Origin: Brachyhypopomus gauderio | Lineage: Eukaryota; Chordata; Actinopteri; Gymnotiformes; Hypopomidae | DNA: 64,000 bases | Reading direction: 5' to 3' | Assembly (NCBI RefSeq): GCF_052324685.1 | Contig: NC_135226.1 | Span: forward strand, 16,703,384-16,767,383 | Part shown: in pieces, positions 21,532 through 62,166 of the stretch | Numbering within the stretch: position 1 is the stretch's first letter | Layout of the letters: each line of letters begins with the position of its first letter | The notes under the pieces: generated by a model | Seen by the model: only the letters and a program-made list of their open reading frames with translations | Database searches by the model: none | What the model was told of the DNA's origin: nothing | Position numbers and translations under genes: made by a program

Positions 21532-21660
21532 ATGGAAAATTATTCTTCAGAGTTTATGTTTGTGCTTCAAGGACTGAATGACACAAGAACACACAAACAA
21601 GTTTACTTTGCAATCGGTCTCGCTATGTATATTGTGACCCTGTTTGTAAATATGACACTA
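21532..21660 (+). pseudogene. Olfactory receptor OR4, 5' part (codons 1-43)
   Basis: Encodes MENYSSEFMFVLQGLNDTRT and on through helix 1 to VNMTL (residue 43), collinear with OR1-OR3. At 21661 the sequence switches mid-helix to AATATAGCCGCAAGCGGC, the start of a TAGCC-type repeat unit. The frame then continues only to a stop at 21721-21723. The remainder of the gene lies at 57266-58066. No stop or frameshift is found in either half, so the receptor was intact when the insertion occurred. Confidence 0.93.
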
Positions 21661-24137
21661 AATATAGCCGCAAGCGGCGATTGGCGGGTTCACACACAAA
21701 TAGGCATATTTTGGCCTCAATAGGCAAATGGAAGCCCAAAAGGTCCTTTAGACCTAAAAGTGAAAAGAAGCTGTTTGGGTTTGGCCAGTGTGTGCTCTAC
21801 AGATAGTGTGTGATGACATCTGCGTGTGTCAGAAAGGGAGACACAGAAATAGCACATCTGGCTAGGGCTGCATCTATGTGAACAATATAGGAAGGCCTGC
21901 ATGTGTCCATACATGATTGGGCCTGTATATCACCAACAGAGAGATTGAGGGAGCCAGAGACTATGCTTTGTTAATTCACTCCTTGCACACCTTGCACGCC
22001 TAACATGACTGCCCGTGTATTCAAAGTATGAATGTAGTCTGCAAAGCCTGCCATAACATGACTGACATGACTGGCATGACTGACATAACTGATATGACTG
22101 AAATGACATCACTGGCATGATGAACAAAAGTAACATGACTGATATGACTGACATAACTGGAATGAGTGACATGACTGGCATGACTGTAATGACATGACTG
22201 ATATGACTGACATGACTTATGTCTGACATGACTGGACTGACATGACTGATATGACTGGACTGACATGACTGACATGACTGGACTGACATGACTGTTATGA
22301 CTGTACAGATATGCATACAAACTATACATACATTTAGGTAGAAGTGTGTGTGTGTGTGTGTGGTAGTGTATGTACTCAAACTATGACAACATATACTAAT
22401 ACATACATACATAAGTATACATAGAAACTATACATACATATAGGTATAAAGGTGTGTGTGTGTGTCTGTGTGTTTGTGTGAGAGAGAGAGACAAAAAAGA
22501 AGCCAAATATCAGTTTGTATAAGCATGTGTTAGTCACTGAGATATGGGTGGGTATGGCTAGGGAAGTGTCATTGTGAATGCTATAGGAAGGCCTGCTTGC
22601 GCCTGTATGTGTGTGTGCCTGGTTAATAGACACAGAGAGATCTAGGTAGCCAGAGCAATGTTTACTTAGGGCACAGAGATGGGAGGGGGAATGTGGGTGA
22701 GAGTGTGAGAGAGACTGAGAGTGTGAGTTTCAGCTTGCGTGCGTGTGAGAAGGAGAAGGTGACAGAGGGACTTTACATGCATTTTTATGCATTGTATATA
22801 ATACTGCACTGTAGAGCCATACGATAACCGATTTAGATGAAACTTGACAAATTTGTTCAGGATGGGATTCTGAATGGGCTTGTGCATTTTGGTCAGAATT
22901 GGATAAAATATGAAAGAGCTTTAAGAATATGAATATTATATGTATCGATGCTGTCCATTAAAAAAATATTTAGCAGGTATAAGTGTCCTCAAATCCAAAA
23001 TCTTTGGATTGTTTTTTGATTTCACACTCTGTAGAGTATTATAAGACTTTGCTTGACATGATAGTATGAAAATCCTAGGAGCAGTATGAAAAGTGATGAT
23101 TTCAGACTATTATTAACTGTAAATAAACTGTGCATTTTTTAATAGGACATGTAATGGGAAAGTTGTTCGCACTACTGCAAGGAATCAAAAGAGTCCAATT
23201 GCATGTTCCCAAGTGGAATTATGTAGGGGATACACTTGCTTTTTTTGCAAGAGCGCCCCCCAGTGGCCAATCGACACCCGGCTGGATTATGTCATGGGGG
23301 GCGTGCACTTGTCCACACCCAAGAGGTTTCGTGCAGATCGACCAATGGTAAGCCTGTCAAACGCGTGCCGATCACTGATTGGCCGATTACGTCAGCCATT
23401 TTGGAAGTATGGCATGTCTGCTTTAGGACCTGGTTTCCAGAGGCCCATAGATGATGTCTGTCAAGTTTCATGTGGATCGGCCAATCTGAGTGCATGGGGC
23501 AAATTTTTGCATGTTATAGCGCCCCCTAGCAGGTGAGGTATGGCAACCTCTGCGAGCTGCCCCAGACCCTCACAGGGAAGCTGTCTGTGAAGTGCCATCT
23601 CATTACATGCAAGTTTTCTTAAGTTAGAGCTCCATATGTGCAAAATTTACTATTGAATTTACGCCCCCTCATTTGATTGGCTTATACTGACTAGGTAGTG
23701 AAGAAATTAGCATTTTTGTTGGATACATTTTAAAGTTCAGACTCTTCTGAACGTTTTGATACCACATATGTGCATGTATGTGAAAAATCCAGGGACTAGT
23801 TCGCGCTCAAAAATGTGTGTGATTTTGCACATTATGCAAATTAACTCGAAATCTAAGTGGGCGGAGCTTAATGGTTGTATATTAATTGTCCTATTGAATT
23901 TAGTCAAGGAATGTATAGGAACTGGAATTTTGGTTCTAGGACCTACGGTGTAGGAGATATGGACAAAAAGTCAATGTGGTCTGCTATAGCGCCACCATCA
24001 GGCCAATTTGGGTCCCTGTATGGGAATCTGGTCCTTGGAGTTAACTGAACCTTTTTGCCAAGTTTGGGGTTTCTAGGCATTACGGTCTAGGCTGCACAAT
24101 GCGTTTTAGGTCAAAAAATGGGACAAAGAATAAGAAA
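21661..24137 (+). repeat. TAGCC unit A1
   Basis: First unit, at the OR4 break. Order of parts (shared by all A units): 5' hairpin; GGGTTCACACACA; CATGACTG minisatellite (about 22050-22300); (TG)n at about 22348-22364; 'gagagag' stretch; GCGCCCCCCAGTGG box 23252; GCGCCCCCTAGCAGG box at about 23519; octamer-like TTTTGCACATTATGCAAATT at about 23824; GCGCCACCATCAGG box at about 23988; 3' block TTACGGTCTAGGCTGCA; A-rich tail. No terminal hairpin. Confidence 0.88.
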
Positions 24138-24839
24138 AAATATAGCCGCAAGCGGCGATTGGCGGGTTCACACACAAATAGGCATATTTTGGCCTCAATA
24201 GGCAAAAGGAAGCCCAAAAGGTCCTTTAGACCTAAAAGTGAAAAGAAGCTGTTTGGGTTTGGCCAGTGTGTGCTCTACAGATAGAGTGTGATGACATCTG
24301 CGTGTGTCAGAAAGGGAGACACAGAAATAGCACATCTGGCTAGGGCTGCATCTATGTGAACAATATAGGAAGGCCTGCATTTGTCTATACATGATTGGGC
24401 CTGTATATTACAGACAGAGAGAGATTGAGGGTGCCAGAGACTATGCTTTGTTAATTCACTCCTTGCACACCTTGCACGCCTAACATGACTGCCCGTGTAT
24501 TCAAAGTATGAATGTAGTCTGCAAAGCCTGGCATTACATGACTGACATGACTGGCATGACTGGCATGACTGACATAACTGATATGACTGGCATGACTGAA
24601 ATGACATCACTGGCATGATGAACAAAAGTAATATGACTGATATGACTGACATAACTGGAATGAGTGACATGACTGGCATGACTGTAATGACATGACTGAT
24701 ATGACTGACATGACTTATGTCTGACATGACTGGACTGACATGACTGATATGACTGGACTGAAATGACTGACATGACTGGACTGACATGACTGTTATGACT
24801 GGACAGATATGCATACAAACTATACATACATTTAGGTAG

Positions 24840-24881
<42 letters not shown>

Positions 24882-26647
24882 TAGTGTATGTACTCAAACT
24901 ATGACAACATATACTAATACATACATACATAAGTATACATAGAAACTATACATACATATAGGTATAAAGGTGTGTGTGTCTGTGTGTTTGTGTGAGAGAG
25001 AGACAAAAAAGAAGCCAAATATCAGTTTGTATGAGCATGTGTTAGTCACTGGGATATGGGTGGGTATGGCTAGGGAAGTGTCATTGTGAATGCTATAGGA
25101 AGGCCTGCTTGCGCCTGTATGTGTGTGTGCCTGGTTAATAGACACAGAGAGATCTAGGTAGCCAGAGCAATGTTTACTTAGGGCACAGAGATGGGAGGGG
25201 GAATGTGGGTGAGAGTGTGAGAGAGACTGAGAGTGTGAGTTTCAGCTTGCGTGCGTGTGAGAAGGAGAAGGTGACAGAGGGACTTTACATGCATTTTTAT
25301 GCATTGTATATAATACTGCACTGTAGAGCCATACGATAACCGATTTAGATGAAACTTGACAAATTTGTTCAGGATGGGATTCTGAATGGGCTTGTGCATT
25401 TTGGTCAGAATTGGATAAAATATGAAAGAGCTTTAAGAATATGAATATTATATGTATCGATGCTGTCCATTAAAAAAATATTTAGCAGGTATAAGTGTCC
25501 TCAAATCCAAAATCTTTGGATTGTTTTTTGATTTCACACTCTGTAGAGTATTATAAGACTTTGCTTGACATGATAGTATGAAAATCCTAGGAGGAGTATG
25601 AAAAGTGATGATTTCAAACTATTATTAACTGTAAATAAACTGTGCATTTTTTAATAGGACATGTAATGGGAAAGTTGTTCGCACTACTGCAAGGAATCAA
25701 AAGAGTCCAATTGCATGTTCCCAAGTGGAATTATGTAGAGGATACACTTGCTTTTTTTGCAATAGCGCCCCCCAGTGGCCAATCGACACCCAGCTGGATT
25801 ATGTCATAGGGGGCGTGCACTTGTCCACACCCAAGAGGTTTCGTGCAGATCGACCAATGGTAAGCCTGTCAAACGCGTGCCGATCACTGATTGGCCGATT
25901 ACGTCAGCCATTTTGGAAGTATGGCATGTCTGCTTTAGGACCTGGTTCCCAGAGGCCCATAGATGATGTCTGCCAAGTTTCATGTGGATCGGCCAATCTG
26001 AGTGCATGGGGCAAATTTTTGCATGTTATAGCGCCCCCTAGCAGGTGAGGTATGGCAACCTCTGCAAGCTGCCCCAGACCCTCACAGGGAAGCTGTCTGT
26101 GAAGTGCCATCTCATTACATGCAAGTTTTGTTAAGTTAGAGCTCCATATGCGCAAAATTTACTATTGAATTTACGCCCCCTCATTTGATTGGCTTATACT
26201 GACTAGGTAGTGAAGAAATTAGCATTTTTGTTGGATACATTTTAAAGTTCAGACTCTTCTGAACGTTTTGATACCACATATGTGCATGTATGTGAAAAAT
26301 CCAGGGACTAGTTCGCGCTCAAAGATGTGTGTGATTTTGCACATTATGCAAATTAACTCGAAATCTAAGTGGGCGGAGCTAAAGGGTCCTAGAGGCTTTT
26401 TTGTTTGGTTTGATCCAAGGAATCCATCAGAAGTGGAATTTCGTTTCTATGACCTACGGTGTAGGAGATATGGACCAAAACGCAAAATGCTGCGCTATAG
26501 CGCCACCATCAGGCCAATGTGGGTCATTGTCTGGGTTTCCCTCATTGCACCTCTGGTGCACCTGTCTGACAAGTTTGGTGTTTCTGGGCCTTACGGTCTA
26601 GGCTGCAGTATGCGTTTTACAGCCTGAAAAATAATAATAATAAGAAG
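24138..26647 (+). repeat. TAGCC unit A2
   Basis: Nearly identical to A7 at 61407 along its whole length, including an alternative 3' module (aagggtcctagaggctttttt ... gcagtatgcgttttacagcc) not found in A1, A3, A4, A5 or A6. The (TG)n tract at 24842-24880 is the main length difference from A7. Ends in AATAATAATAAGAAG without a hairpin. Confidence 0.88.
24534..24806. repeat. CATGACTG minisatellite (in A2; present in every A and B unit)
   Basis: About 270 bp of degenerate tandem 8-10 bp words, mostly ATGACTG plus AC, GG or AT (catgactgacatgactggcatgactg...). Equivalent tracts are at about 22058-22300, 26881-27030, 29373-29625, 32040-32275, 34910-35155, 37595-37815, 40730-40965, 51354-51595 and 61802-62070. 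On the minus strand it yields long Ser-Val-Met-type frames that are not genes. Confidence 0.85.
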
Positions 26648-27069
26648 AAATATAGCCGCAAGCGGCGATTGGCGGGTTCACACACAAATAGGCATATTTT
26701 GGCCTCAATAGGCAAAAGGAAGCCCAAAAGGTCCTTTAGACCTAAAAGTGAAAAGAAGCTGTTTGGGTTTGGCCAGTGTGTGCTCTACAGATAGTGTGTG
26801 ATGACATCTGCGTGTGTCAGAAAGGGAGACACAGAAATAGCACATCTGGCTAGGGCTGCATCTATGTGAACAATATAGGAATAACTGGAATGAGTGACAT
26901 GACTGGCATGACTGTAATGACATGACTGATATGACTGACATGACTTATGTCTGACATGACTGGACTGACATGACTGATATGACTGGACTGAAATGACTGA
27001 CATGACTGGACTGACATGACTGTTATGACTGGACAGATATGCATACAAACTATACATACATTTAGGTAG

Positions 27070-27103
<34 letters not shown>

Positions 27104-28983
27104 TAGTGTATGTACTGAAACTATGACAACATATACTAATACATACATACATAAGTATACATAGAAACTATACATACATATAGGTATAAAGGTGTGTGTG
27201 TCTGTGTGTTTGTGTGAGAGAGAGAGACAAAAAAGAAGCCAAATATCAGTTTGTATGAGCATGTGTTAGTCACTGAGATATGGGTGGGTATGGCTAGGGA
27301 AGTGTCATTGTGAATGCTATAGGAAGGCCTGCTTGTGCCTGTATGTGTGTGTGCCTGGTTAATAGACACAGAGAGATCTAGGTAGCCAGAGCAATGTTTA
27401 CTTAGGGCACAGAGATGGGAGGGGGAATGTGGGTGAGAGTGTGAGAGAGACTGAGAGTGTGAGTTTCAGCTTGCGTGCGTGTGAGAAGGAGAAGGTGACA
27501 GAGGGACTTTACATGCATTCTTATGCATTGTATATAATACTGCACTGTAGAGCCATACGATAACCGATTTAGATGAAACTTGACAAATTTGTTCAGGATG
27601 GGATTCTGAATGGGCTTGTGCATTTTGGTCAGAATTGGGTAAAATATGAAAGAGTTTTAAGAATATGAATATTATATGTATCGATGCTGTCCATTAAAAA
27701 AATATTTAGCAGGTATAAGTGTCCTCAAATCCAAACTCTTTGGATTGTTTTTTGATTTCACACTCTGTAGAGTATTATAAGACTTTGCTTGACATGATAG
27801 TATGAAAATCCTAGGAGCAGTATGAAAAGTGATGATTTCAAACTGTTATTAACTGTAAATAAACTGTGCATTTTTTAATAGGACTTGTAATGGGAAAGTT
27901 GTTCGCACTACTGCAAGGAATCAAAAGAGTCCAATTGCATGTTCCCAAGTGGAATTATGTAGGGGATACACTTGCTTTTTTTGCAATAGCGCCCCCCAGT
28001 GGCCAATCGACACCCGGCTGGATTATGTCATAGGGGGCATGCACTTGTCCACACCCAAGAGGTTTCGTGCAGATCGACCAATGGTAAGCCTGTCAAACGC
28101 GTGCCGATCACTGATTGGCCGATTACGTCAGCCATTTTGGAAGTATGGCATGTCTGCTTTAGGATCTGGTTTCCAGAGGCCCATAGATGATGTCTGTCAA
28201 GTTTCATGTGAATCGGCCAATCTGAGTGCATGGGGCAAATTTTTGCATGTTATAGCGCCCCCTAGCAGGTGAGGTATGGCAACCTCTGCGAGCTGCCCCA
28301 GACCCTCACACAGAAGCTGTCTGTGAAGTGCCATCTCATTACATGCAAGTTTTCTTAAGTTAGAGCTCCATATGTGCAAAATTTACTATTGAATTTACGC
28401 CCCCTCATTTGATTGGCTTATACTGACTAGGTAGTGAAGAAATTAGCATTTTTGTTGGATACATTTTAAAGTTCAGACTCTTCTGAACGTTTTGATACCA
28501 CATATGTGCATGTATGTGAAAAATCCAGGGACTAGTTCGCGCTCAAAGATGTGTGTGATTTTGCACATTATGCAAATTAACTCGAAATCTAAGTGGGCGG
28601 AGCTTAATGGTTGTATATTAATTGTCCTATTGAATTTAGTCAAGGAATGCATAGGAACTGGAATTTTGGTTCTAGGACCTACGGTGTAGGAGATATGGAC
28701 AAAAAGTCAATATGCTCTGCTATAGCGCCACCATCAGGCCAATTTGGGTCCCTGTATGGGAATCTGGTCCTTGGAGTTAACTGAACCTTTTTGCCAAGAT
28801 TGGGTTTTCTAGGCATTACGGTCTAGGCTGCACGATGCATTTTATGTCAAAAAATGGGCAAAAGAATAAGAAGAAAAATAAGAAAAATACCAGCAATTAC
28901 AATAGGGTTCCCACACTGTGTGTGTGAACCCTAAAAACTCGAGCAATTACAATAGGGTTCCCACACTATGTGTGTGAACCCTA
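26648..28983 (+). repeat. TAGCC unit A3 with two terminal hairpins
   Basis: A unit with an internal deletion of about 280 bp relative to A2 (junction at 26880: aatatagga|ataactgg). It shares private variants with A6 (for instance acatgcattcttatgc). It ends with two tandem terminal hairpins at 28904-28932 and 28954-28982. Confidence 0.88.
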
Positions 28984-31510
28984 ACAAGCGGCGATTGGCG
29001 GGTTCACACACAAATAGGCATATTTTGGCCTCAATAGGCAAAAGGAAGCCCAAAAGGTCCTTTAGACCTAAAAGTGAAAAGAAGCTGTTTGGGTTTGGCC
29101 AGTGTGTGCTCTACAGATAGTGTGTGATGACATCTGCGTGTGTCAGAAAGGGAGACACAGAAATAGCACATCTGGCTAGGGCTGCATCTATGTGAACAAT
29201 ATAGGAAGGCCTGCATGTGTCTATACATGATTGGGCCTGTATATTACAGACAGAGAGAGATTGAGGGTGCCAGAGACTATGCTTTGTTAATTCACTCCTT
29301 GCACACCTTGCACGCCTAACATGACTGCCCGTGTATTCAAAGTATGAATGTAGTCTGCAAAGCCTGGCATTACATGACTGACATGACTGGCATGACTGAC
29401 ATAACTGATATGACTGGCATGACTGAAATGACATCACTGGCATGATGAACAAAAGTAATATGACTGATATGACTGACATAACTGGAATTAGTGACATGAC
29501 TGGCATGACTGTAATGACATGACTGATATGACTGACATGACTTATGTCTGACATGACTGGACTGACATGACTGATATGACTGGACTGAAATGACTGACAT
29601 GACTGGACTGACATGACTGTTATGACTGTACAGATATGCATACAAACTATACATACATTTAGGTAGAAGTGTGTGTGTGTGTGTGTGGTAGTGTATGTAC
29701 TCAAACTATGACAACATATACTAATACATACATACATAAGTATACATAGAAACTATACATACATATAGGTATAAAGGTGTGTGTGTCTGTGTTTGTGTGA
29801 GAGAGAGACAAAAAAGAAGCCAAATATCAGTTTGTATAAGCATGTGTTAGTCACTGAGATATGGGTGGGTATGGCTAGGGAAGTGTCATTGTGAATGCTA
29901 TAGGAAGGCCTGCTTGCGCCTGTATGTGTGTGTGCCTGGTTAATAGACACAGAGAGATCTAGGTAGCCAGAGCAATGTTTACTTAGGGCACAGAGATGGG
30001 AGGGGGAATGTGGGTGAGAGTGTGAGAGAGACTGAGTGTCTGTGAGTTTCAGCTTGCGTGCGTGTGAGAAGGAGAAGGTGACAGAGGGACTTTACATGCA
30101 TTTTAATGCATTGTATATAATACTGCACTGTAGAGCCATACGATAACAGATTTAGATGAAACTTGACAAATTTGTTCAGGATGGGATTCTGAATGGGCTT
30201 GTGCATTTTGGTCAGAATTGGGTAAAATATGAAAGAGCTTTAAGAATATGAATATTATATGTATCGATGCTGTCCATTAAAAAAAATATTTAGCAGGTAT
30301 AAGTGTCCTCAAATCCAAAATCTTTGGATTGTTTTTTGATTTCACACTCTGTAGAGTATTATAAGACTTTGCTTGACATGATAGTATGAAAATCCTAGGA
30401 GGAGTATGAAAAGTGATGATTTCAAACTATTATTAACTGTAAATAAACTGTGCATTTTTTAATAGGACATGTAATGGGAAAGTTGTTCGCACTACTGCAA
30501 GGAATCAAAAGAGTCCAACTGCATGTTCCCAAGTGGAATTATGTAGGGGATACACTTGCTTTTTTTGCAATAGCGCCCCCCAGTGGCCAATCGACACCCG
30601 GCTGGATTATGTTATAGGGGGCGTGCACTTGTCCACACCCAAGAGGTTTCGTGCAGATCGACCAATGGTAAGCCTGTCAAACGCGTGCCGATCACTGATT
30701 GGCCGATTACGTCAGCCATTTTGGAAGTATGGCATGTCTGCTTTAGGACCTGGTTCCCAGAGGCCCATAGATGATGTCTGCCAAGTTTCATGTGGATCGG
30801 CCAATCTGAGTGCATGGGGCAAATTTTTGCATGTTATAGCGCCCCCTAGCAGGTGAGGTATGGCAACCTCTGCGAGCTGCTCCAGACCCTCACAGGGAAG
30901 CTGTCTGTGAAGTGCCATCTCATTACATGCAAGTTTTCTTAAGTTAGAGCTCCATATGCGCCAAATTTACTATTGAATTTACGCCCTCTCATTTGATTGG
31001 CTTATACTGACTAGGTAGTGAAGAAATTAGCATTTTTGTTGGATACGTTTTAAAGTTCAGACTCTTCTGAACGTTTTGATACCACATATGTGCATATATG
31101 TGAAAAATCCAGGGACTAGTTCGCGCTCAAAGATGTGTGTGATTTTGGACATTATGCAAATTAACTCGAAATCTAAGTGGGCGAAGCTTAATGGTTGTAT
31201 ATTAATTGTCCTATTGAATTTAGTCAAGGAATGTATAGGAACTGGAATTTTGGTTCTAGGACCTACGGTGTAGGAGATATGGACAAAAAGTCAATATGGT
31301 CTGCTATAGCGCCACCATCAGGCCAATTTGGGTCCCTGTATGGGAATCTGGTCCTTGGAGTTAACTGAACCTTTTTGCCAAGTTTGGGGTTTCTAGGCAT
31401 TACGGTCTAGGCTGCACAATACGTTTTAGGTCAAAAAATGGGACAAAGAATAAGAAAGAAAAATCCTAACAATTACAATAGGGTTCCCACACTATGTGTG
31501 TGTGAACCCT
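28984..31510 (+). repeat. TAGCC unit A4, missing its 5' hairpin arm
   Basis: It starts caagcggcgattggcggg directly after the A3 hairpin: the first ten bases (aatatagccg) of a normal unit are gone. It ends with a hairpin at 31480-31510. Confidence 0.87.
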
Positions 31511-32718
31511 AAATATAGCCGCAAGCGGCAATTGCGGGTTCACACACGAAAAAGGCAAAAAAGCCCAAAAAATTGGCAAAATGATTCAGATCAGAAGTAA
31601 ATCACATGCTGTGAGTAGCTTTGTGTGTATGTGTGTTTGTGTGTTTTTTTATTTAAGCAGTACATCTTGGCTTGAGCCAAGGAATACAATAGAAGTAGTA
31701 TTTTGTTTCTAGGCCCTACAGTGTGAAAGATATTGGAAAATAAAAGTGAAAAGAAGCTGTTTGGGTTTGGCCAGTGTGTACTCTACAGATAGTTTGTGAT
31801 GACATCTGCGTGTGTCAGAAAGGGAGACACAGAAATAGCACATCTGGCTAGGGCTGCATTTATGTGAACAATATAGGAAGGCCTGCATGTGTCTATACAT
31901 GATTGGGCCTGTATATTACCGACAGAGAGAGATTCAGGGAGCCAGAGACTATGCTTTGTTAATTCACTCCTTGCACACCTTGCACGCCTAACATGACTGT
32001 CCATGTATTCAAAGTATGAACGCAGTCTGCAAAGCCTGCCATAACATGACTGACATGACTGGCATGACTGACATAACTGATATGACTGGAATGACTTCAC
32101 TGGCATGATAAACAAAAATAACATGACTGATATGACTGACAACTGGCATGACTGGAATGAGTGACATGACTAGCATGACTGTAATGACATGACTGATATG
32201 AGTGACATGACTGGCATGACATGACTGATATGACTGACACGACTTATGTCTGACATGACTGGACTGACATGACTGACATCTGCTTGTGTCAGAAAAGGAG
32301 ACACAGAAATAGCACATCTGGCTAGGGCTGCATCTATGTGAACAATATAGGAAGGCCTGCATGTGTCTATACATAATTGGGCCTGTATATTACCGACAGA
32401 GAGAGATTGAGGGAGCCAGAGACTATGCTTTGTTAATTGACTCCTTGCACACCTTGCATGCCTAACATGACTGTCCGTGTATTCAAAGTATGAATGTGGA
32501 CTAACATGACTGATATGACTGACATAACTGGCATGACTGTAATGATTTGATTATTTGACTTATATGACTGACATGACTGATATGACTGATATGACTGGAC
32601 TGAAATGACTGGCATGGCATGCCTGATATGACTGATACGACTGACATTGCTGGCATGAATGACATATACTATACATATACTATAAATATGCATACAAACT
32701 ATACATACATTTTGGTAG

Positions 32719-32779
<61 letters not shown>

Positions 32780-32838
32780 AGTCAAAGAGTAATGGGTATA
32801 CATGGCTAGGGCAGTGTGTATGTTAAACCTATAAGTAG

Positions 32839-32883
<45 letters not shown>

Positions 32884-34509: not shown

Positions 34510-35197
34510 AAATATAGCCGCAAGCGGCGATTGGCGGGTTCACACACAAATAGGCATATTTTGGCCTCAATAGGCAAAAGGAAGCCCAAAAGGTCCTTTA
34601 GACCTAAAAGTGAAAAGAAGCTGTTTGGGTTTGGCCAGTGTGTGCTCTACAGATAGTGTGTGATGACATCTGCGTGTGTCAGAAAGGGAGACACAGAAAT
34701 AGCACATCTGGCTAGGGCTGCATCTATGTGAACAATATAGGAAGGCCTGCATGTGTCTATACATGATTGGGCCTGTATATTACAGACAGAGAGAGATTGA
34801 GGGAGCCAGAGACTATGCTTTGTTAATTCACTCCTTGCACACCTTGCACGCCTAACATGACTGCCCGTGTATTCAAAGTATGAATGTAGTCTGCAAAGCC
34901 TGGCATTACATGACTGACATGACTGGCATGAATGACATAACTGATATGACTGGCATGACTGAAATGACATCACTGGCATGATGAACAAAAGTAATATGAC
35001 TGATATGACTGACATAACTGGAATGAGTGACATGACTGGCATGACTGTAATGACATGACTGATATGACTGACATGACTTATGTCTGACATGACTGGACTG
35101 ACATGACTGATATGACTGGACTGAAATAACTGACTGGACTGACATGACTGTTATGACTGGACAGATATGCATACAAACTATACATACATTTAGGTAG

Positions 35198-35245
<48 letters not shown>

Positions 35246-37078: not shown

Positions 37079-40205
<3,127 letters not shown>

Positions 40206-41400: not shown

Positions 41401-41437
<37 letters not shown>

Positions 41438-41493
41438 AGTCAAAGAGTAATGGGTATACATGGCTAGGGCAGTGTGTATGTTAAACCTATAAG

Positions 41494-41547
<54 letters not shown>

Positions 41548-45060: not shown

Positions 45061-46929
45061 AAATATAGCCGCAAGCGGCAATTACGGGGTCCAAGCGCAG
45101 GGTATGGGCACCATCTGGCACGCCTGAGATGCGTAAGCATGTGTGTGTAATCACTGGGTAGGTATGGGTGAAGCAATGTGTATATGAAACCTATAGGTAG
45201 GCCATTGCATGTGTGTGCATGTGTAAGAAAGATGTAGGGGTAATTCAGGAAATTCTAGTATAGCGCCACCTAGTGGTGCAATTCCCGTCATACTTGAGTA
45301 TGTCTTAGAGAGTGTGTAGATGAACATAATATGTGAGTTTCATGTTGATTGGCATATGATAAGCTTGTGAAATGTGAACTGAAAGCTGATTGGTCGATAG
45401 CGGCAGCCATATTGGACATATGATGGTGCAGGTCAAGGACCTGTGTCATAGGTGCATATAAATGATGCGTACCAAGTTTGGAGTTATTTGGCCAATCGGT
45501 GTGGGCAGGAGAGTTTTTTGGCCGTTATAGCGCCACCTAGGTGTGCATGTCTGCCAAAATGTATGTACCGGTCTAGACACCCAATAGGTACATGTGTGTG
45601 AAATTTGGAGTGAATACATGAAAGTATGCCTGAGATACAGCAGAATATGTGGATTTTTGGCGAAGAAATTTTCTACGCTTGACTTGTGATGCATGTGGCC
45701 ACGCCCATGTGCAGAAATGTGCACTTTGGCTCCATAACAATTAAAGTTCAGACTCTTGTGAGCGCCTGGATACCACATATGTGCATGTATGTGAAAAATC
45801 CAGGGACTAGTACGCGCTCAAAAATGTGTGCAAATTTGCATATTATGCAAATTAGCTCGACATGTAAGGGGCGGAGCATATGGCTTCAATGGAACTTTTT
45901 TTAGATGAGCACATGCCTGATCAGGTGAAGTTTACATTTTGTCTCTAGGACATACGGTTTAGGAGAAACACCAGTTTAAACTTTTTCATGCGTTTTTGTG
46001 CGCTATAGCGCCACCTATGGTCGGATCGGGCTGGCGTGTTGCGCCTGAGTAGCGGAGAGGAGTACTACAAGTTGGCCAAAGGAGAAGTCTGTAGGTCTTA
46101 CGGTTTAGGCTGCACAACAAGTTTTAAGGCAGAAAAAAAATTGGCATATGAAAAGCTTGTGAAAGGTGTACTGAAAGCTGATTGGTCGATAGCGGCGGCC
46201 ATATTGGACATATGATGGTGCAGGTCAAGGACCTGTGTCATAGGTGCATATAGATGATGCGTACCAAGTTTGGAGTTATTTGGCCAATCGGTGTGGGCAG
46301 GAGAGTTTTTTGGCCGTTATAGCGCCACCTAGATGTGCATGTCTGCCAAAATGCATGTGCAGGTCTAGACACCCAGTAGGTACATGTGTGTGAAATTTGG
46401 TATGAATACGTGAAAGAATGCCTGAGATATAGCAGAATATGTGGATTTTTGGCGAAGGAATTTTCTACGCTTGACTTGTGATGCATGTGGCCACGCCCAT
46501 GTGCAGAAATGTGCACTTTGGCTCCATAACTATTAAAGTTCAGACTCTTCTGAGCGCCTGGATATCACATATGTGCATGTATGTGAAAAATCCAGGGACT
46601 AGTACGCGCTCAAAAATTTGTGCAAATTTGCATATTATGCAAATTAGCTCGACATGTAAGGGGCGGAGCATATGGCTTCAATGGAACTTTTTTTAGATGA
46701 GCACATGCCTGATCAGATGAAGTTTACATTTTGTCTCTAGGACATACGGTTTAGGAGAAACACCAGTTTAAACTTTTTCATGCGTTTTTGTGCGCTATAG
46801 CGCCACCTATGGTCGGATCGGGCTGGCGTGTTGCGCCTGAGTAGCGGAGAGGAGTACTACAAGTTGGCCAAAGGAGAAGTCTGTAGGTCTTACGGTTTAG
46901 GCTGCACAACGCGTTTTAGCGGAGAAAAA

Positions 46930-46960
<31 letters not shown>
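45061..46960 (+). repeat. TAGCC composite C2, tandem copy of C1
   Basis: Repeats the C1 arrangement (full 45061-46139, truncated 46140-46960) with only scattered substitutions, so the two-part composite of about 1.9 kb was duplicated as one piece. Ends in an (AAT)n run of about 30 bp. Confidence 0.87.
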
Positions 46961-46965
<5 letters not shown>

Positions 46966-48817
46966 TAGCCGCAAGCGGCAATTGGCGGGTTCACACACGA
47001 ATAGGCTTCTTGGCCTCAATAGGCAGAGGCCCAAAAGGTCCTTTAGACCCCAAAATGTGAAAAGAAGCTGTTTGAGTGGAAAAAATGCACAAATAAATCA
47101 ATGTGCAAAAAAAGGTTCAATTGGGGCACTAAAGGCCCAAAAGGATCAAAATAATATGTATTGGCAAAATTATTCAGATCACAGAACTAAATCACATGCT
47201 GAGATCAGCTTTGTGTGTGTTTGTGTGGTGTTTCATGTGAGAAATAGTTTTCAGTCAGTTCCGGTGTTTGGCCACTAGATGGAGCCCAAGTACTATCATA
47301 CTGATATCTCATTAATCTCAGTAATGCAATGACATTTTGGTGAATTAAAAGGTTCATTTCTGGTCAGGCAGTGCACTTTTTGTTATGAGATGTAATTGCA
47401 ATGTTATAGACCTCATTGATCTGAATCATACAAGCCCCATTACTTGTCTGTATTCTGCATAACAAGATTGCTGCGTGAGTTTTTATGATTTCTCAGGTTT
47501 TTGGGTACTGTAGCGCCTCCGACAGGCCAATTTGAACCAAACTTGGCCTACCTCACAAGGACCTCAGTCTATAAAAGCCTTTCAAATTGGGAGTTGATCA
47601 CTTACATGGTTTATGAGTTATAGCAATAAAGGTCATTTATGGCATGGCCAGAAGGATATAATGGAAAAATTGACCAATCAGACAAGTAAAAATGCAACAT
47701 TTTTTCCTTATTTAGTTAACTACAGTGTCTACAGATTATGCTTATGCCATTTTTGACATCATTGGATCAAATTCCTAGGACTAGTTCTTAAAGAGCTATT
47801 TTCAAACAATTGATGAATGTGACAAAAGTATGCATTTTTTATTAGGACTTGTAATAGCAAAGTTGTCAGGTCTACTGCAAGGTATAAAATGAAACAAGTT
47901 GCATGTTCCTAAGTGAAAATTTGGAGGAGTTATGTATGATTTTCACAAATAGCGCCACCTAGTGGCCAAATGTTTCAACACTGCACAGTATGACACATAG
48001 TCCTGGGATATGTACAGTGATGAGGTTTCATGTTGATTGGCCAATGGTAAGTCTGTCAAATGGCCAATTAATTCAAATAAAAATTAATTGGCTCATGGCG
48101 GCCATGTTTTTTGAGTGATGAGGTCATCATTGTGTGCCTTGATACCACTTGGGCCCCTGATGATGCCTGTAAATTTTGGGCTTGATGTGACTAATGGTTT
48201 CTGAGAAACAAATTTCCCCATGTTATAGCGCCCCCTATTGGACAATCGTGGCCAGCTTTGACCTGTGACCTCTGAGTCATGTGCCCTAACAACTGATAAA
48301 TTTTCATAAAGATAGGTCAAAGCATTGCTGAGATATAGCTGCTGAAGTCAATTTGGCCACGCCTCAGAGCTATTGATTGACATGTGACAACCAGACGGTA
48401 TACCAATGTCACAGTTTTGTTGATGTTCCTTGATAATGAGATTCTTGTGAATATTTTGACACCAAGATTGTGGTGATCAGATGAAAAACCAGGGACTAGT
48501 ATAAAAAAGTAGGTTTTGCATATTATGCAAATTAGCAAAAAATCTAAGTAGGCGGAGCTTAATGGTTCTTGAGGCTTTTTTGTTTGTCTGGAGCCAAGGA
48601 ATGCACCTGAAGTGGAATTTTGTGTCTAGGACCTACGGGGTGGGAGATATGAATCCAAACGCAAAATGCTGCGCTATAGCGCCACCATGAGGCCAATTTG
48701 GGTGTCTGTACTTAAGCACGGTCCCGCAAACAGACTACACCAGTCTGCCAAGTTTGGTCTCCCTGCGCCTTACGGTTTAGGCTGCAGTATGCGTTTTATG
48801 CGGAGAAAAATAATAAT
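46961..48817 (+). repeat. TAGCC unit D
   Basis: 5' end resembles A (GGCAATTGGCGGGTTCACAC), the middle is unique, and the part after about 48000 matches B units. The last 250 bp (aatggttcttgaggctttttt ... gcagtatgcg) resemble the 3' module of A2 and A7. Octamer palindrome at about 48517. No hairpin. Confidence 0.82.
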
Positions 48818-50955
48818 AAATATAGCCGCAAGCGGCAATGAGCGGGCTCCTCGCAAGTGGCATAGGTACCGACTTGCATGCCTGCGGCGAAGGCATAGTA
48901 GATATGGCTAGGCCAGTGTGTATGTGAAACCTATTGGTAGGCTTGTGCATGTGTGTGCATGTGTAATAGAGAGAGAGAGGTTTGGTGTGATAATGTTTGT
49001 TTTCATCAGTTAGAGCTGTGTATGTGTGTGAGTGATTGCATATAATGGGCAGTCTTAGTTGTCACAGTGAACTCACACTGTCATGTCAGACATGTATGTG
49101 CTCAATCTGTGATGCATACACATAAGTAGGTGTATGTGTGTGTGTGTGTGAATTAGGTGTTTGTATGTGTTACTCTCTAATGTATGGGTAGGCATGGCTA
49201 AGGCAGTGTGTATGTGAAGCTTATAGGGAGGCCTGTTTTTTTGTGAGTGCATGTGAAATAGAGAGAGGGAGGGGGAGACAGAGACCATGGGTTGTTAAGT
49301 GTTAGAAGGTTGGGGGAGTGTGGGGGGAGTGGATGAGAGGGGCACTCTGCGTGTGTGAGAAGTGAGTGCATGTGAAATAGAGAGAGGGAGGGGGAGACAG
49401 AGACATGGGTTGTTAAGTGTTAGAAGGTTGGGGGAGTGGGGGGTGGGGAGTGGATGAGAGGGGCACTCTGCGTCTGCGAGAATGAGAGCGTGCGTGCCTG
49501 CAAACAGCTCTCTACCGCTCCTTGCACTGCTGAGTATGGAAAATGAAAATATTCACTGTAGAGTCATTTGTGGACGGATTTAGCTCAAACTTGGCAAATA
49601 TCACCTCAATGGTCATGTGAATGTGCATGTCAATTTTCATAAACATAGGACATACTATAGCGGAGTTATTAAAATATGAATTTGATGTGTTATGATGGTA
49701 CCATTGTGATGCATATGAAAAATATAAATTTGTGGAAATCTTAGGATTTTTTGCACAACATTTGCATTGCATAGTCTGCTAAGTATATCAAGGTGTGATT
49801 TGAGGTGATGGAGTGAAAATCCTAGGCGTAGTATGGAAAGTGGAAATTATACATATTTGATAATATGTGAAAATCCGTACATTTTTGTAAAGCACTTGCA
49901 ATTACAAAGTTGTTAAGGATTCTACGTAGAATCATATGAGTCCAAGTTTGTTGTTTTATGTCATACTATGTGGGCGTAATTCAGGAGTTTCTAGTATAGC
50001 GCCACCTAGTGGTGCAATTGCCATCATACCCCAGTATGTCTTAGAGGGTGTGCACCTGAACATGCCATGTGAGTTTCAGGTCAATTGACATATGTAAAGC
50101 TTGTAAAGCTTGTGAAATTGTATACTGACAGCTAATTGGTCGATGGTGGCGGCCATATTGGACATATGATGGTGCAGACCTAGGACCTGTCTCAGAGGTG
50201 CATGTAGATGATGCATACCAAGTTTTGTGTTATTTGGCCAATCGGTGTGTGCAGGAGAGTTTTTTGGCAGTTATAGCGCCCCCTAGGTGTGAATGTGTGC
50301 CAAAATGTATGGGCAGGTGTAGACGCCCAACAGGTACATGTATATGAAATTTGGTGTGAATATGTAAAAGTATGCATGAGATACAGCAGAAAATGTGCAT
50401 TTTTGGCTGTGAAATTTTTGCCCCTTGACTTGTGTGGCATGTGGCCACGCCCATGTGCAGAAATGTGCATTTTTTGTTAAAGATTATTAAAGTTCAGACT
50501 CTTCTGAACGTTTTGATACCACATATGTGCATGTATGTGAAAAATCCAGGGACTAGTTAACTCTCAAAAATGTGTGCGATTTTGCATATTATGCAAATTA
50601 GCTCGAAAACGAAGTAGGCGGAGCTTATGGGTTCTTGAGGCTTTTTGGTAGGTTTGGAGACAAGGAACATGTATATGAAAGAATTTTAAATTTAGGACAT
50701 ACGTGGTACTGGCAATTTACTTGAATGCGTTTGCGTGCGCTGTAGCGCCACCTATGGGCGGATTTGGCTGGCGTCTTGCGCCTGAGTAGCGGGAGGGACT
50801 ACTACCTATTGACCAAGTTTCAAGTCTGTAGGCCTTACGGTTTGGGCTGTGCGAACCGTTTTAAGGCAGAAAAAGAATAATAATAATAAGAACATGAAGG
50901 AGAAAAATCCTAACAATTACAATAGGCCTCCAGCACCTTTGGTGCTCGGAGCCCT
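48818..50955 (+). repeat. TAGCC unit E with its own hairpin type
   Basis: 5' end GGCAATGAGCGGGCTCCTCG; 3' hairpin 50924-50955 with arms AGGCCTCCAGCACC and GGTGCTCGGAGCCCT. A tandem duplicate of about 110 bp (agtgcatgtgaaatagagag) lies at about 49247-49465. The C-like second half contains GCGCCACCTAGTGG (about 49999) and GCGCCCCCTAGG (about 50275). The 3' block is TTACGGTTTGGGCTGTG. Confidence 0.85.
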
Positions 50956-51150
50956 AATAATAAGAAAGAAAAATCCGAGCAATAACAATAGGTTTCCCAC
51001 ACTATGTGTGTGAACCCTAAAAAGAAGAAAAAAGAAAAATCCTAGCAATTACAATAGGGTTCCCACACTATGTGTGTGAACCCTAAAAAGAAGAAAAAAG
51101 AAAAATCCTAGCAATTACAATAGGGTTCCCACACTATGTGTGTGAACCCT
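50924..51150 (+). repeat. Array of four tandem terminal hairpins
   Basis: Hairpins at 50924-50955 (E type), 50990-51018, 51056-51084 and 51122-51150 (A/B type), spaced about 66 bp, each preceded by gaaaaatcc(t/g)agcaat(t/a)acaat. The A/B type is AGGGTTCCCACAC, loop TAT, then GTGTGTGAACCCT: a 13-bp stem with one mismatch. The intervening unit bodies are missing. Confidence 0.9.
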
Positions 51151-51638
51151 AATAACTAGGGCTGCATCTATGTGAACAATATAGGAAGGCCTATATTGTG
51201 TCTATACATGATTGGGCCTGTATATTACAGACAGAGAGAGATTGAGGGTGCCAGAGACTATGCTTTGTTAATTCACTCCTTGCACACCTTGCACGCCTAA
51301 CATGACTGCCCGTGTATTCAAAGTATGAATGTAGTCTGCAAAGCCTGGCATTACATGACTGACATGACTGGCATGACTGACATAACTGATATGACTGAAA
51401 TGACATCACTGGCATGATGAACAAAAGTAATATGACTGATATGACTGACATAACTGGAATGAGTGACATGACTGGCATGACTGTAATGACATGACTGATA
51501 TGACTGACATGACTTATGTCTGACATGACTGGACTGACATGACTGATATGACTGGACTGAAATGACTGACATGACTGGACTGACATGACTGTTATGACTG
51601 GACAGATATGCATACAAACTATACATACATTTAGGTAG

Positions 51639-51682
<44 letters not shown>

Positions 51683-53516
51683 TAGTGTATGTACTGAAAC
51701 TATGACAACATATACTAATACATACATACATAAGTATACATAGAAACTATACATACATATAGGTATAAAGGTGTGTGTGTCTGTGTGTTTGTGTGAGAGA
51801 GAGAGACAAAAAAGAAGCCAAATATCAGTTTGTATGAGCATGTGTTAGTCACTGAGATATGGGTGGGTATGGCTAGGGAAGTGTCATTGTGAATGCTATA
51901 GGAAGGCCTGCTTGTGCCTGTATGTGTGTGTGCCTGGTTAATAGACACAGAGAGATCTAGGTAGCCAGAGCAATGTTTACTTAGGGCACAGAGATGGGAG
52001 GGGGAATGTGGGTGAGAGTGTGAGAGAGACTGAGAGTGTGAGTTTCAGCTTGCGTGCGTGTGAGAAGGAGAAGGTGACAGAGGGACTTTACATGCATTCT
52101 TATGCATTGTATATAATACTGCACTGTAGAGCCATACGATAACCGATTTAGATGAAACTTGACAAATTTGTTCAGGATGGGATTCTGAATGGGCTTGTGC
52201 ATTTTGGTCAGAATTGGGTAAAATATGAAAGAGCTTTAAGAATATGAATATTATATGTATCGATGCTGTCCATTAAAAAAATATTTAGCAGGTATAAGTG
52301 TCCTCAAATTCAAAATCTTTGGATTGTTTTTTGATTTCACACTCTGTAGAGTATTATAAGACTTTGCTTGACATGATAGTATGAAAATCCTAGGAGGAGT
52401 ATGAAAAATGATGATTTCAAACTATTATTAACTGTAAATAAACTGTGCATTTTTTAATAGGACATGTAATGGGAAAATTGTTCGCACTACTGCAAGGAAT
52501 CAAAAGAGTCCAATTGCATGTTCCCAAGTGGAATTATGTAGGGGATACACTTGCTTTTTTTGCAATAGCGCCCCCCAGTGGCCAATCGACACCCGGCTGG
52601 ATTATGTCATAGGGGGCGTGCACTTGTCCACACCCAAGAGGTTTCGTGCAGATCGACCAATGGTAAGCCTGTCAAACGCGTGCCGATCACTGATTGGCCG
52701 ATTACGTCAGCCATTTTGGAAGTATGGCATGTCTGCTTTAGGACCTGGTTTCCAGAGGCCCATAGATGATGTCTGTCAAGTTTCATGTGGATCGGCCAAT
52801 CTGAGTGCATGGGGCAAATTTTTGCATGTTATAGCGCCCCCTAGCAGGTGAGGTATGGCAACCACTGCGAGCTGCCCCAGACCCTCACACGGAAGCTGTC
52901 TGTGAAGTGCCATCTCATTACATGCAAGTTTTCTTAAGTTAGAGTTCCATATGTGCAAAATTTACTATTGAATTTACGCCCCCTCATTTGATTGGCTTAT
53001 ACTGACTAGGTAGTGAAGAAATTAGCATTTTTGTTGGATACATTTTAAAGTTCAGACTCTTCTGAACGTTTTGATACCACATATGTGCACGTATGTGAAA
53101 AATCCAGGGACTAGTTCGCGCTCAAAGATGTGTGTGATTTTGCACATTATGCAAATTAACTCGAAATCTAAGTGGGCGGAGCTTAATGGTTGTATATTAA
53201 TTGTCCTATTGAATTTAGTCAAGGAATGCATAGGAACTGGAATTTTGGTTCTAGTACCTACGGTGTAGGAGATATGGACAAAAAGTCAATATGGTCTGCT
53301 ATAGCGCCACCATCAGGCCAATTTGGGGTCCCTGTATGGGAATCTGGTCCTTGGAGGTAACTGAACCTTTTTGCCAAGATTGGGTTTTCTAGGCATTACG
53401 GTCTAGGCTGCACGATGCATTTTATGTCAAAAAATGGGCAAAAGAATAAGAAAAATAAGAAAAATACCAGCAATTACAATAGGGTTCCCACACTATGTGT
53501 GTGTGAACCCTAAAAA
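51151..53516 (+). repeat. TAGCC unit A6, 5'-truncated
   Basis: Starts inside the unit (ctagggctgcatctatg), lacking the first roughly 180 bp. Shares private variants with A3. (TG)n at about 51641-51681. Its terminal hairpin is the first of a four-hairpin run. Confidence 0.87.
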
Positions 53517-53698
53517 ACCCTAACAATTACAATAGGGTTCCCACACTATGTGTGTGTGAACCCTAAAAAGAAGAAAAATTCGAGCAATTACAATAGGTTT
53601 CCCACACTACGTGTGTGAACCCTAATAAGAAGAAAAAAAAAAAAGAAGAAAAATTCGAGCAATTACAATAGGTTTCCCACACTACGTGTGTGAACCCT
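53481..53698 (+). repeat. Second array of four tandem terminal hairpins
   Basis: Hairpins at 53481-53511, 53534-53564, 53595-53623 and 53670-53698. The last two carry the same two variants (GGTTTC arm, TAC loop) and the same long A/AG-rich spacer, so they duplicated together. Confidence 0.9.
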
Positions 53699-56600
53699 AA
53701 AAAAGGCACAAAAGCCCAAAGGGTCTTTTAGACCAACAAGTGATATGAAGCTACTTCAGTCCAAAAAATGGACAGATAAAGTAATTTGCAAAAAATTATT
53801 CAACTGGGGCAATAAAGGCCCAAAAGATCAAAACAAAATGTAATGGCAAAATGATTCAGATCATAGAAGTTAATCAGTGCTGTGATTAGCTTTGTATTTG
53901 TGTGTTTGTGTGTTTTTTCATGTATGCAGTAAGGGCTTCTTGAGGCTTTTTTGGTTGGCTTGAGCAAAGGAATACAGCTGAAGTAGAATTTTGTTTCTAG
54001 GCCATACAGTGTGGAAGATATTAGCAAAATGATTCAGACCATACAACTAAATCAAATGCTGAGATTAGGTTAAAAGCACTGACACACTGACACACATTGT
54101 GTGTCAGCACTAAAAGCACTGACACACAATTTGTCAGAAGTTGTGAACATAGCAGCAGGAGAGCTCTTGTTAATGCCCCACATGTAAACCCCACTATTTA
54201 ACCCTTTTCATTTAGCTGACAAAATCTGTCACATGTGAATCTCAAACAAACCAAAGAGTGATGGCTTACTATACAATAAAATAACACAAATATTCTTATC
54301 TTTGCCTGTTCATGATGTTCTCATCCCTACTCTGACATGTTCTCACTGTTGTGCCCATAGTAGGGAGGCCACTAGGAATGTGTATCTAACAAGACTTTGA
54401 TGATAAGTAAAGCATGCAGTTATATAGAGGTTGTGTGTGAAATGTGAATTACATATCTCTGTCCTCTCTTATGTCATTTCAGGATGTATAGAGGGCATGA
54501 GTTGAGAGTGTGGATGGAAAAATGAAGCTAAATATCAGTTAGTGTGTTGGAAATGGCAAGAGAAATGTATATATGAAGCATATAGGAAGTCCTGTGTGAG
54601 GGTGTGTGGAAAAAAAGAAGCTAAATATCTGTATATTAGTCACTGGGTAATTGGTAGTAATGGCTAGAATTAGTGTGTATGTGAAACCTATAGGCCAGAG
54701 AGGCCTTTGTTTTTGTGAGTGCATGTGAAGGAGAGAGAGGGAGGAGGGAGAGCCCAAGGGTTGTAAAGTGTTAGAAGCATGGGGGAGTGGAGGAGGGGGG
54801 CAGCGTGTGTGAGAATGGCAAACGTGCGTGTCTTATTCAACTGAGGCAATAAAGGCCCAAAAGATCAAAACAAAATGTATTGGCAAAATGATTCAGATCA
54901 TAGAAGTTAATCAAATGCTGTGATTAGCTTTGTATGTGTGTGTGTGTTTTTTCATGTATGCAGTAAGGGCTTCTTGAGGCTTTTTTGGTTGGCTTGAGCA
55001 AAGGAATACAGCTGAAGTACAATTTTGTTTCTAGGCCATACAGTGTGGAAGATATTAGCAAAATGATTCAGACAATACAACTAAATCAAATGCTGAGATT
55101 AGGTTAAAAGTACTGACACACTGACCCAGGGGCCTAGTCAAATAAATATACCTTTGGCTGAATTTGACTGATGTTGTGAACATAGCAGCAGGAGAGCTCT
55201 GGTTAATGCCCCACATGTAAACACCACTCTTTAACCCTTTTCATTTAGCTGACAAAATATGTCACATGTGATTCTCAAACAAACCAGAGTGATGGGTTAC
55301 TATACAATAAAATAACACAAATATTCTTATCTTTGCCTGTTCATGATGTTCTCATCCCTACTCTGACATGTTCTCACTGTTGTGCCCATAGTAGGGAGGC
55401 CACTAGGAATGTGTATCTAACAAGACTTTGATGATAAGTAAAGCATGCAGTTATATAGAGGTTGTGTGTGAAATGTGAATTACATATCTCTGTCCTCTCT
55501 TATGTCATTTCAGGATGTATAGAGGGCATGAGTTGAGAGTGTGGATGGAAAAATGAAGCTAAATATCAGTTAGTGTGTTGGAAATGGCAAGAGAAATGTA
55601 TATATGAAGCATATAGGAAGTCCTGTGTGAGGGTGTGTGGAAAAAAAGAAGCTAAATATCTGTATATTAGTCACTGGGTAATTGGTAGTAATGGCTAGAA
55701 TTAGTGTGTATGTGAAACCTATAGGCCAGAGAGGCCTTTGTTTTTGTGAGTGCATGTGAAGGAGAGAGAGGGAAGAGGGAGAGCCCAAGGGTTGTAAAGT
55801 GTTAGAAGCATGGGGGAGTGGAGGAGGGGGGCAGCGTGTGTGAGAATGTGCGTGTCTTAGCAGCTGTCTATGCCTCCCTGCACTGGTCAGTATGGAAAAT
55901 GAAAATATTCACTGTAGAGCCGTTTGCAGGCGGATTTGGCTCAAACTTGGCACACTTAACCACAATGGTCATGTGAATGTGGATGTCAGTTTTCATAACA
56001 ATCAGACATACTATGGCGTAGTTATTGAACTGTGAATTTGATGTGTTACGATGGTAGCATTGTGATGTATATGAAAAATATTAATTTGTGAAAACCTTAG
56101 GATTTTCTTGCTAATCTTAGCATTTCAGAGTCTGCTGAGTATTACAAGGTGTGATTTAAAGGTGATGGAGTTAAAATGCTAGGACTAGTATGAAAATGAC
56201 AAGTTATATATATTTGATAATAGTGAAAAAGTGGTACATTTTTGCAAAGCACATGTAATTAGAAAGTTGCTAGGAATTCTGCATACAATCATATGAGTGC
56301 AAGCATTTCTTGATAAGTGAAAATATGTAGGAGAAATTCTGGATTTTCTAGTATAGCGCCACCTAGTGGTGCAATTCCCTTCTAACATGAGTATGTCTTA
56401 GAGGGTGTGTACATGAACATACCATGTCAGTTTCATGTGTATGTACCTATGGTAAGTCTGTCAAATGGCCAATTAATTAAAATTAAAATTAATTGGCTTA
56501 TGGTGGCCATGTTTTTTGAGTGATGAGGTCATCATTGTGTGCCTTGATACCACTTGGGCCCCTGATGACGTCTGTAAAGTTTGGGCTTGATGTGACTAAT

Positions 56601-57265
56601 GGTTTCTGAGAAACAAATTTCCCCATGTTATAGCACCCCCTATTGGACAATCGTGGCCAGCTTTGACCTGTGACCTCTGAGTCATGTGCCCTAACAACTG
56701 ATAAATTTTCATGAAGATTGGTCAAAGCATTGCTGAGATATAGCTGCTGAAGTAAATTTAGCCACGCCTCAGAGCTATTGATTGACATGTGACAGTCAGA
56801 CTGTATACCAATGTCACAGTTTTGTTGATATTCATTGACAATGAGATTCTTGTGAATATTTTGACACCAAGATTGTGGTGATCAGATAAAAAACCAGGGA
56901 CTAGTATAAAAAAATAGGTTTTGCATATTATGCAAATTAGCAAAAAATCTAAGTAGGCGGAGCTTAATGGTTGTATATGAATAGTCCTATTGAATTTTGC
57001 CAAGGAATCCATAAAAAGTGGAATTTTGTTTCTATGACTTACGGATTGGGAGATATGGACCAAACGACAAAATGGTGCGCTATAGCGCCACCATCAGGCC
57101 AATGTGGGTCTCTGTACTTGAGTCTGGTCCTTGGACCATACATTATCAATTTGCCAAGTTTGGTGTTTCTAGGCCTTACGGTCTAGGCTGCACAATGCGT
57201 TTTAGGTCAAAAAATGGGCAAAAGAATAATAATAATAAGAAGAAGAAGAAAGAAAAATCCTAACA
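53699..57265 (+). repeat. TAGCC-related segment F with internal 1.03-kb tandem duplication
   Basis: 5'-truncated (starts aaaaaggcacaaaagccc). A stretch at about 53806-54833 is repeated at about 54834-55860 with few differences (offset about 1030). From 55861 it follows the second module of B units: GCGCCACCTAGTGG at about 56356, GCACCCCCTATTGG at about 56633, octamer palindrome at about 56921, GCGCCACCATCAGG at about 57083, TTACGGTCTAGGCTGCA at about 57176. It ends at the OR4 junction in AATAATAATAAG and aatcctaacaattaca, just short of where a hairpin would start. Confidence 0.83.

Positions 57266-62108: not shown

Positions 62109-62166
<58 letters not shown>

Follow-up and report, generated by a model that had tools for sequence, protein, structure and literature searches.

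Arrays of probable Helentron-derived units, one of them within an olfactory receptor gene, in the genome of Brachyhypopomus gauderio

An array of hairpin-ended units within an olfactory receptor gene

All four long ORFs of the window (the whole 64,000-nucleotide stretch of B. gauderio DNA analysed here, NC_135226.1 positions 16,703,384 to 16,767,383) match Pfam 'Olfactory receptor'. Receptor paralogues are located at 7282-8259, 13060-14049 and 17058-18029, and a further receptor gene is split into a left part (21532-21660, + strand) and a right part (57278-58066) by an array of repeated units at 21661-57265, which sits within an olfactory receptor gene cluster. The left edge of the array breaks the gene after GACACTA, and the two parts match the copy at 7282 at 83% and 86%.

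The array comprises 14 unit bodies in a single orientation (Helentron 5' to 3' on the - strand), of which 11 carry the full short hairpin, one has it truncated (28985) and two have lost this end (~51157 and ~53704). The sequence TAGCCGCAAGCGGC is present 12 times in the window, always exactly and on the + strand, with 0.12 matches expected per shuffled window even at 2 mismatches; the twelfth match (61412) belongs to a separate unit outside the array. A body closes with the conserved stretch TTACGGTCTAGGCTGCA and its variants, followed by an A-rich leader ((AAT)n, GAAGAAAAA) and a palindrome ending in CCCTAA, and abutting units are joined directly as CCCTAA-ATATAGCC. There are 13 palindromes between 21661 and 57265, together with one that is broken, at the right end.

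Read on the - strand, a unit opens with TTAGGGTTCACACACA, the palindromic repeat lying 3 nt from the end (TTA-GGG...), and closes with ...TGTGTGTGAACCC-GCCAATC-GCCGC-TT-GCGGC-TATATT, where the 3' subTIR and the hairpin are 25 nt and 6 nt from the unit end; in the outermost unit this Helentron-type 3' end, with the TATATT terminus, the GCCGC-TT-GCGGC hairpin and the subTIR at the same 25 nt, occupies 21661-21698 (- strand). The order is that printed for HINEs and Helentrons in the available part of PMC4067079 (palindromic 5' subTIR, 3' subTIR, short 3' palindrome and T-rich end), and the initial annotation of this DNA therefore had the ends swapped: its 3' palindrome is the Helentron 5' end and its 5' hairpin the Helentron 3' end. 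Nor does the A-type palindrome form the clean 13-bp stem first described: its fold has 8+5 bp and a mismatch, with a stability far above that of shuffled sequences (z -5.0; three palindrome examples range from -4.0 to -5.0). The GCCGC-AA-GCGGC reported as the unit start is indeed a perfect inverted repeat, found in 11 array units, but its 40-nt end shows no more folding stability than shuffles (z -0.13).

Three types of unit (A, B and E) occupy the array. An A-type unit (24140-26649) has its leader interrupted by a second A-type unit (26650-28934) with an exact 13-bp match between subTIR and outer palindrome arm; the palindrome of the inner unit lies at 28896-28934 and that of the interrupted unit is the second one, at 28946-28984. 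The A-type unit at 28985-31512 has a truncated 3' hairpin and starts at CAAGCGGC. Two B-type units (43175-46962; subTIR GGGGTCCAAGC) have no palindromes of their own type within the array, the A-type unit at 46963-48819 aligns to both ends of the autonomous element described below, and the E-type unit at 48820-50957 has the subTIR GGGCTCC and the outer palindrome arm GGAGCCC. Three more A-type palindromes stand in tandem at 50982-51152; we read these as leftover 5' ends of interrupted outer units, but two of the three mismatch the type of the B-type units that need closure. Four tandem palindromes are found at 53473-53700, and the last unit (53704-57265) has lost its hairpin end and has a palindrome broken just inside. 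All of these features are on the - strand, as is the separate A-type unit at 61409-63984, whose leader and palindrome are intact and which provides an empty-site reference for the nested insertion at 26650.

Several departures from simple unit structure were also observed. The B-type units at 43175-46962 contain an internal ~790-bp duplication (repeats 43460/44249 and 45348/46140). Truncated starts are shared between loci, with CAAGCGGC at ~28985 in the window and near 1634 in the fetched locus L018, and CTAGGGCTGCAT at ~51157 in the window and near 8246 in L018, which suggests that units may be moved or copied in truncated form. The final palindrome (57256-57270) is lost exactly at CCTAACAATTACA, where receptor and leader sequences resemble each other, and our guess is that it was deleted between short direct repeats.

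In the genome (796.5 Mb, 840 contigs) there are 3,941 exact copies of TATAGCCGCAAGCGGC, the Helentron-type 3' end of the units. The B-type end has 921 exact copies and hence marks a common subfamily. Contig C1 alone has 25 clusters among the first 100 places listed.

Co-variation of the ends and a long-gene partner element

The relationship between the two ends was examined in 37 uninterrupted units with both ends in one body, drawn from the window and the fetched loci. Complementarity of GGGTTCACACACA and TGTGTGTGAACCC is exact in 13 of these, and the perfect complementary run between subTIR and outer arm is 11-13 bp long in all A-type units but one (33 of 34); in L028 it is 6 bp. The run is 11 bp in both B-type units (GGGGTCCAAGC and GCTTGGACCCC) and 7 bp in the single E-type unit available, which has changed on both sides (GGGCTCC and GGAGCCC). 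Complementarity of the repeat after the short hairpin to the outer arm in A-type units, and joint change in the E-type unit, were claims of the initial annotation that are borne out here, and the co-variation extends to the B subfamily, which that annotation did not list. In HINEs both ends carry an inverted subTIR of 11-15 bp, and the 5' subTIR is palindromic and lies 2-4 nt from the end; the inverted subTIRs of all but one A-type unit and of both B-type units reach this span and those of the E-type unit only 7 bp. Co-variation of A/G with T/C at subTIR position 13 is suggestive only. Both ends keep one sequence in inverted orientation, and the match of subTIR to outer arm in three subfamilies reveals which terminal feature is conserved.

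The subTIR agrees with the outer palindrome arm more closely than the palindrome arms agree with each other in all four examples compared, and this more exact preservation of end-to-end complementarity than of the palindrome's own stem is what might be expected if the co-variation arose from base-pairing of the ends during transposition, rather than from two copies of one Rep binding site. However, the same pattern is expected if one protein binds an inverted site at each end, and published Helentron families likewise differ by the subTIRs common to both ends (PMC4067079, in the part available). Because a single Rep site at both ends and annealing of the ends both require co-variation, it cannot by itself separate these readings; the ends have changed together as first claimed, but that they must pair is not established, and we consider pairing an unlikely source of the pattern.

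The initial annotation supposed that the units are mobilised in trans, and elements that code for Rep and have these kinds of end are indeed present elsewhere in the genome. PF14214 has 85 genome matches, 61 of them in open frames that are 2,265 aa or longer, and a search for a full-length Rep/helicase relative found an autonomous Helentron partner of ~27.9 kb on C1 (38751007-38778869), which has both kinds of end on one contiguous stretch of 28,901 bp, with the end bearing the short hairpin at 38751007 and the end of the palindrome near 38778869. Its 2,652-aa ORF contains Herpes_teg_N, OTU (3.3e-07), DUF6570, Helitron_like_N, PIF1 and Exo_endo_phos domains; Helitron_like_N (6.7e-22) and PIF1 (5.6e-22) lie in the two halves of the same open frame and Exo_endo_phos (AP-type endonuclease, 1.5e-09) is near the C-terminus. 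There are further ORFs in this stretch, one of which resembles a reverse transcriptase by eye, and as these may be later insertions, 27.9 kb may overstate the length of the partner itself. Accessory genes for an OTU protease and an RPA-like protein are frequent but not universal in Helentrons. Upstream of the Rep gene, an ORF of 273 aa (L039:1131-1949, - strand) has no Pfam match and only a faint resemblance to single-stranded DNA-binding proteins (E 0.52); it is possibly an RPA-like accessory gene. With respect to the ends, the partner Rep ORF is transcribed in the reverse of the usual direction, as previously reported for a Danio Helentron (available text of PMC5148889).

A 1,093-bp query from the left end of the C1 partner gave at least 42 matches, four of them full length, with 40 of 1,762 candidates scored. 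Each of the four full-length left ends among the matches listed has a same-strand Rep ORF 17.1-18.3 kb downstream, where the chance expectation is ~0.0008 per marker. Among the 36 matches of ~548 bp listed, five precede a Rep ORF, three of them by 11.8-12.0 kb and the others by 16.0 and 26.9 kb, and several have the nearest Rep on the opposite side. Approximately 9.5 kb past the Rep start, the expected leader is present in nine of ten longer-class Rep copies tested, with a palindrome in four and interrupted by another unit in five; the Rep copy of L051 has neither leader nor palindrome within the 0.9 kb searched.

The window unit at 46967-48819 aligns to the C1 partner across its left 0.4 kb (91.1%) and its right 1.7 kb (92.5%) with the middle absent, and these end alignments identify it as a deletion derivative of the C1 partner's lineage. 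Derivation from an autonomous Helentron is seen for this A-type unit; for the B- and E-type units, the Rep copies examined included no autonomous partner with matching ends. Rep copies on contigs C5 and C3 with upstream B ends were rejected as a B-type autonomous element, having A-type leaders downstream. Rep ORFs of another, often clustered class are located on contigs C2, C4, C291 and others, 21 of these 26 having frames of 2,265-2,421 aa; in one 6-kb stretch downstream of one copy of this shorter class (L048) none of the ends studied here is present. The partner elements link thousands of hairpin-ended repeats to long-gene elements in one genome.

Insertion sites and array order

Removal of (A)TATAGCC...CCCT(AA) (the unit at 26650) from the unit at 24140 restores the leader that is intact at 63893-63959, without duplication, and an independent nested insertion, in the C1:17835-17868k array, likewise leaves a net three A's. 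A known leader is restored without target duplication at seven of ten nested sites, five of them up to the AAT repeat number, which supports the initial report that target duplications are lacking; the other three sites have a one-base difference (L013), two leader types joined, and one extra palindrome. To the left of 11 outer insertions the A content is 62% in 20 nt, as against 36% in the next 17 nt. Two familiar classes were rejected: a classic TIR/TSD transposon or MITE, as the repeats are subterminal and asymmetric and there is no duplication at nested sites, and a canonical Helitron (5'-TC, CTRR-3', A/T insertion), the observed ends being TTAGGG... and ...TATATT.

Among the first 100 places listed, all 75 neighbouring pairs less than 15 kb apart agree in strand, as do 10 of 24 pairs farther apart. 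Units and palindromes were tallied in the nine arrays with both outer flanks (C1:9889k, C1:14470k and L019 are cut by the fetched ends and were excluded), and number 14/13 (+1 broken), 7/8, 2/2, 5/5, 11/12, 5/4, 6/5, 3/2 and 2/1, a total of 55 units and 52 palindromes that are never more than one apart. The eighth palindrome in the C1:916-935k array (7/8) was added by a wider palindrome pattern, and the six units at C1:34478700-34493000 were counted by hairpins, the body marker having found only four. A perfectly balanced bracket grammar was rejected, with three of the nine arrays in balance (that of the window only on counting the broken palindrome) and six off by one. A palindrome is recognised in six of 11 single-unit loci, and none is present in the fetched stretch of the other five (L009, L012, L020, L032 and L033).

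Leader remnants were compared with the nesting in 24 interrupted pairs, including those of incomplete arrays and one mispaired case (C1:9889k, 9300/11494) in which the marker of the inner unit was missed. Shuffling over all arrays gave a fit as good in one of 5,000 shuffles, a strong fit, and shuffling within arrays in 283 of 5,000, a weak fit. In the arrays C1:42917k, C1:34478k and C1:916k, B-type palindromes accompany B-type units, three and three, and the window's two B-type units are paired only with A-type palindromes.

Identity, array growth and relationship to known elements

Given the shared ends and end-proximal sequence, the partner with Rep, PIF1 and AP-endonuclease, the absence of duplication at nested sites, the A-rich flanks and the uniform orientation, the units are very probably HINEs, that is, internally deleted, non-autonomous relatives of Helentrons (Helitron2-type), with a long-gene Helentron in the same genome. 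Points against this identity are the closeness of the 3' subTIR and hairpin to the end, the ordinary folding stability of the short hairpin, the reversed Rep ORF, the imperfect balance of the arrays, the pairing of two B-type units with A-type palindromes, and the failure to find an autonomous element with B or E ends among the Rep copies examined. The early preference for single-strand (HUH/Helitron-like) mobility over a TIR transposon accords with the Helentron-type ends, the Rep partner and the lack of duplication.

Rep from autonomous copies would recognise the subterminal repeat, inverted at both ends, start at the palindromic 5' end and stop at the short 3' hairpin, and the copy would be re-inserted into T-rich DNA (A-rich on the + strand). 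The A-rich leader ((AAT)n, GAAGAAAAA) that each element would carry directly inside the palindrome may often be where a new copy lands in an older unit, in the same orientation. The older palindrome would then be stranded behind the newer one, and arrays would grow head-to-tail with palindrome-less junctions and surplus palindromes, a new unit inside an older leader giving the order unit, unit, palindrome, palindrome. Deletion, recombination, or transposition of units with two 5' ends, the last proposed in PMC5148889 (in part), could add noise.

The restoration of nested sites and the near-equal numbers of units and palindromes favour self-insertion over concatemers, and self-insertion into the A-rich leader is probably the main array-forming process. 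The fuller proposal, in which the leader is a landing platform, self-insertion is of fixed orientation, the array is a bracket-like record of insertion order, and B- and E-type units join likewise, is one that we put forward tentatively; if true, it would explain head-to-tail Helitron arrays without rolling-circle concatemers.

Head-to-tail order and direct abutment of units (CCCTAA-ATATAGCC) are also features of concatemers, which the same Helentron family could produce through rolling-circle replication or end bypass and insert as whole blocks, and the accessible text of PMC5148889 reports both circles and tandem copies of Helitrons. Concatemers, however, predict neither palindrome-less junctions at varied leader points with matching surplus palindromes downstream nor the mixing of subfamilies within arrays, and this origin seems to us distinctly unlikely. 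Recombination or duplication does happen, as near-identical neighbouring units and identical breakpoints in different loci (the CAAGCGGC and CTAGGGCTGCAT starts) attest, and these could point to a satellite, an old Helentron copy having been expanded through unequal crossing-over while transposition contributed little in recent times; against this are the exact 3' ends fused to many leader positions and single-copy flanks, the mixed subfamilies, and the fact that the first 100 places listed form 25 clusters on C1 alone, which make a satellite very improbable. A separate, undescribed single-strand system that merely resembles Helentrons, to which the spacing between the end and its subTIR and hairpin (unlike that of mite HINEs) might point, is scarcely credible and largely refuted by the partner, given that the genome contains Rep/Hel/endonuclease elements whose ends are the same and whose flanking sequence is homologous.

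The description of the units as an undescribed mobile system is therefore not sustained, their anatomy matching published Helentron, Helitron2 and HINE features and Rep elements being present in the same genome. The mechanism class is already known (Helentron/Helitron2/HINE), and the family itself may well be catalogued already, although no description of the present lineage or of long nested arrays was found in the available portions of the open-licence PubMed Central literature. Self-insertion into leaders bears on a point that PMC5148889, in the part available, leaves open for Helitron2 elements, namely the origin of arrays; for three tandem Metarhizium copies, self-insertion and circle replication are both entertained there. 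The units, palindromes, subfamily order and leader remnants described here provide a countable test of the origin of head-to-tail rolling-circle arrays.

HINE/DINE-1 elements and Helentrons, as described in the available part of PMC4067079, share with the present units the inverted subTIRs, the palindromic 5' subTIR, the short 3' palindrome, T-rich boundaries, the absence of target duplication, families distinguished by subTIRs, and deletion derivatives that outnumber a Rep/Hel/endonuclease partner. The same source places the 3' subTIR of mite HINEs 38-60 nt and the 3' palindrome 8-35 nt from the end, whereas in the present units both are closer (25 and 6 nt); these distances describe mite families and are not a stated requirement. 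For other Helitron2 elements ~20-40 bp from the end is given (PMC5148889, in part). Further differences from HINE/DINE-1 elements in the PMC4067079 text are the A-rich/AAT leader between body and palindrome and the long nested arrays of one orientation, and, with respect to Helentrons also, the reversed Rep ORF of the partner and its stretch of ~27.9 kb.

The Fusarium Helitron2 elements FoHeli1 and FoHeli2 resemble the units in having an asymmetric terminal inverted repeat, hairpins at both termini (at the 3' end of the units a perfect inverted repeat), a 3' end of ATATTTT, tandem copies, and some copies with several 5' termini, but differ in lacking an endonuclease, in a 3' repeat 38-51 bp from the end, and in having few tandem or nested cases (PMC5148889, as far as its available text extends). 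The partner's coding content resembles that of zebrafish Helentrons, in which, according to the accessible part of PMC9741609, the Helitron ORF likewise contains tegument-like deubiquitinase and OTU domains and a C-terminal AP-type endonuclease.
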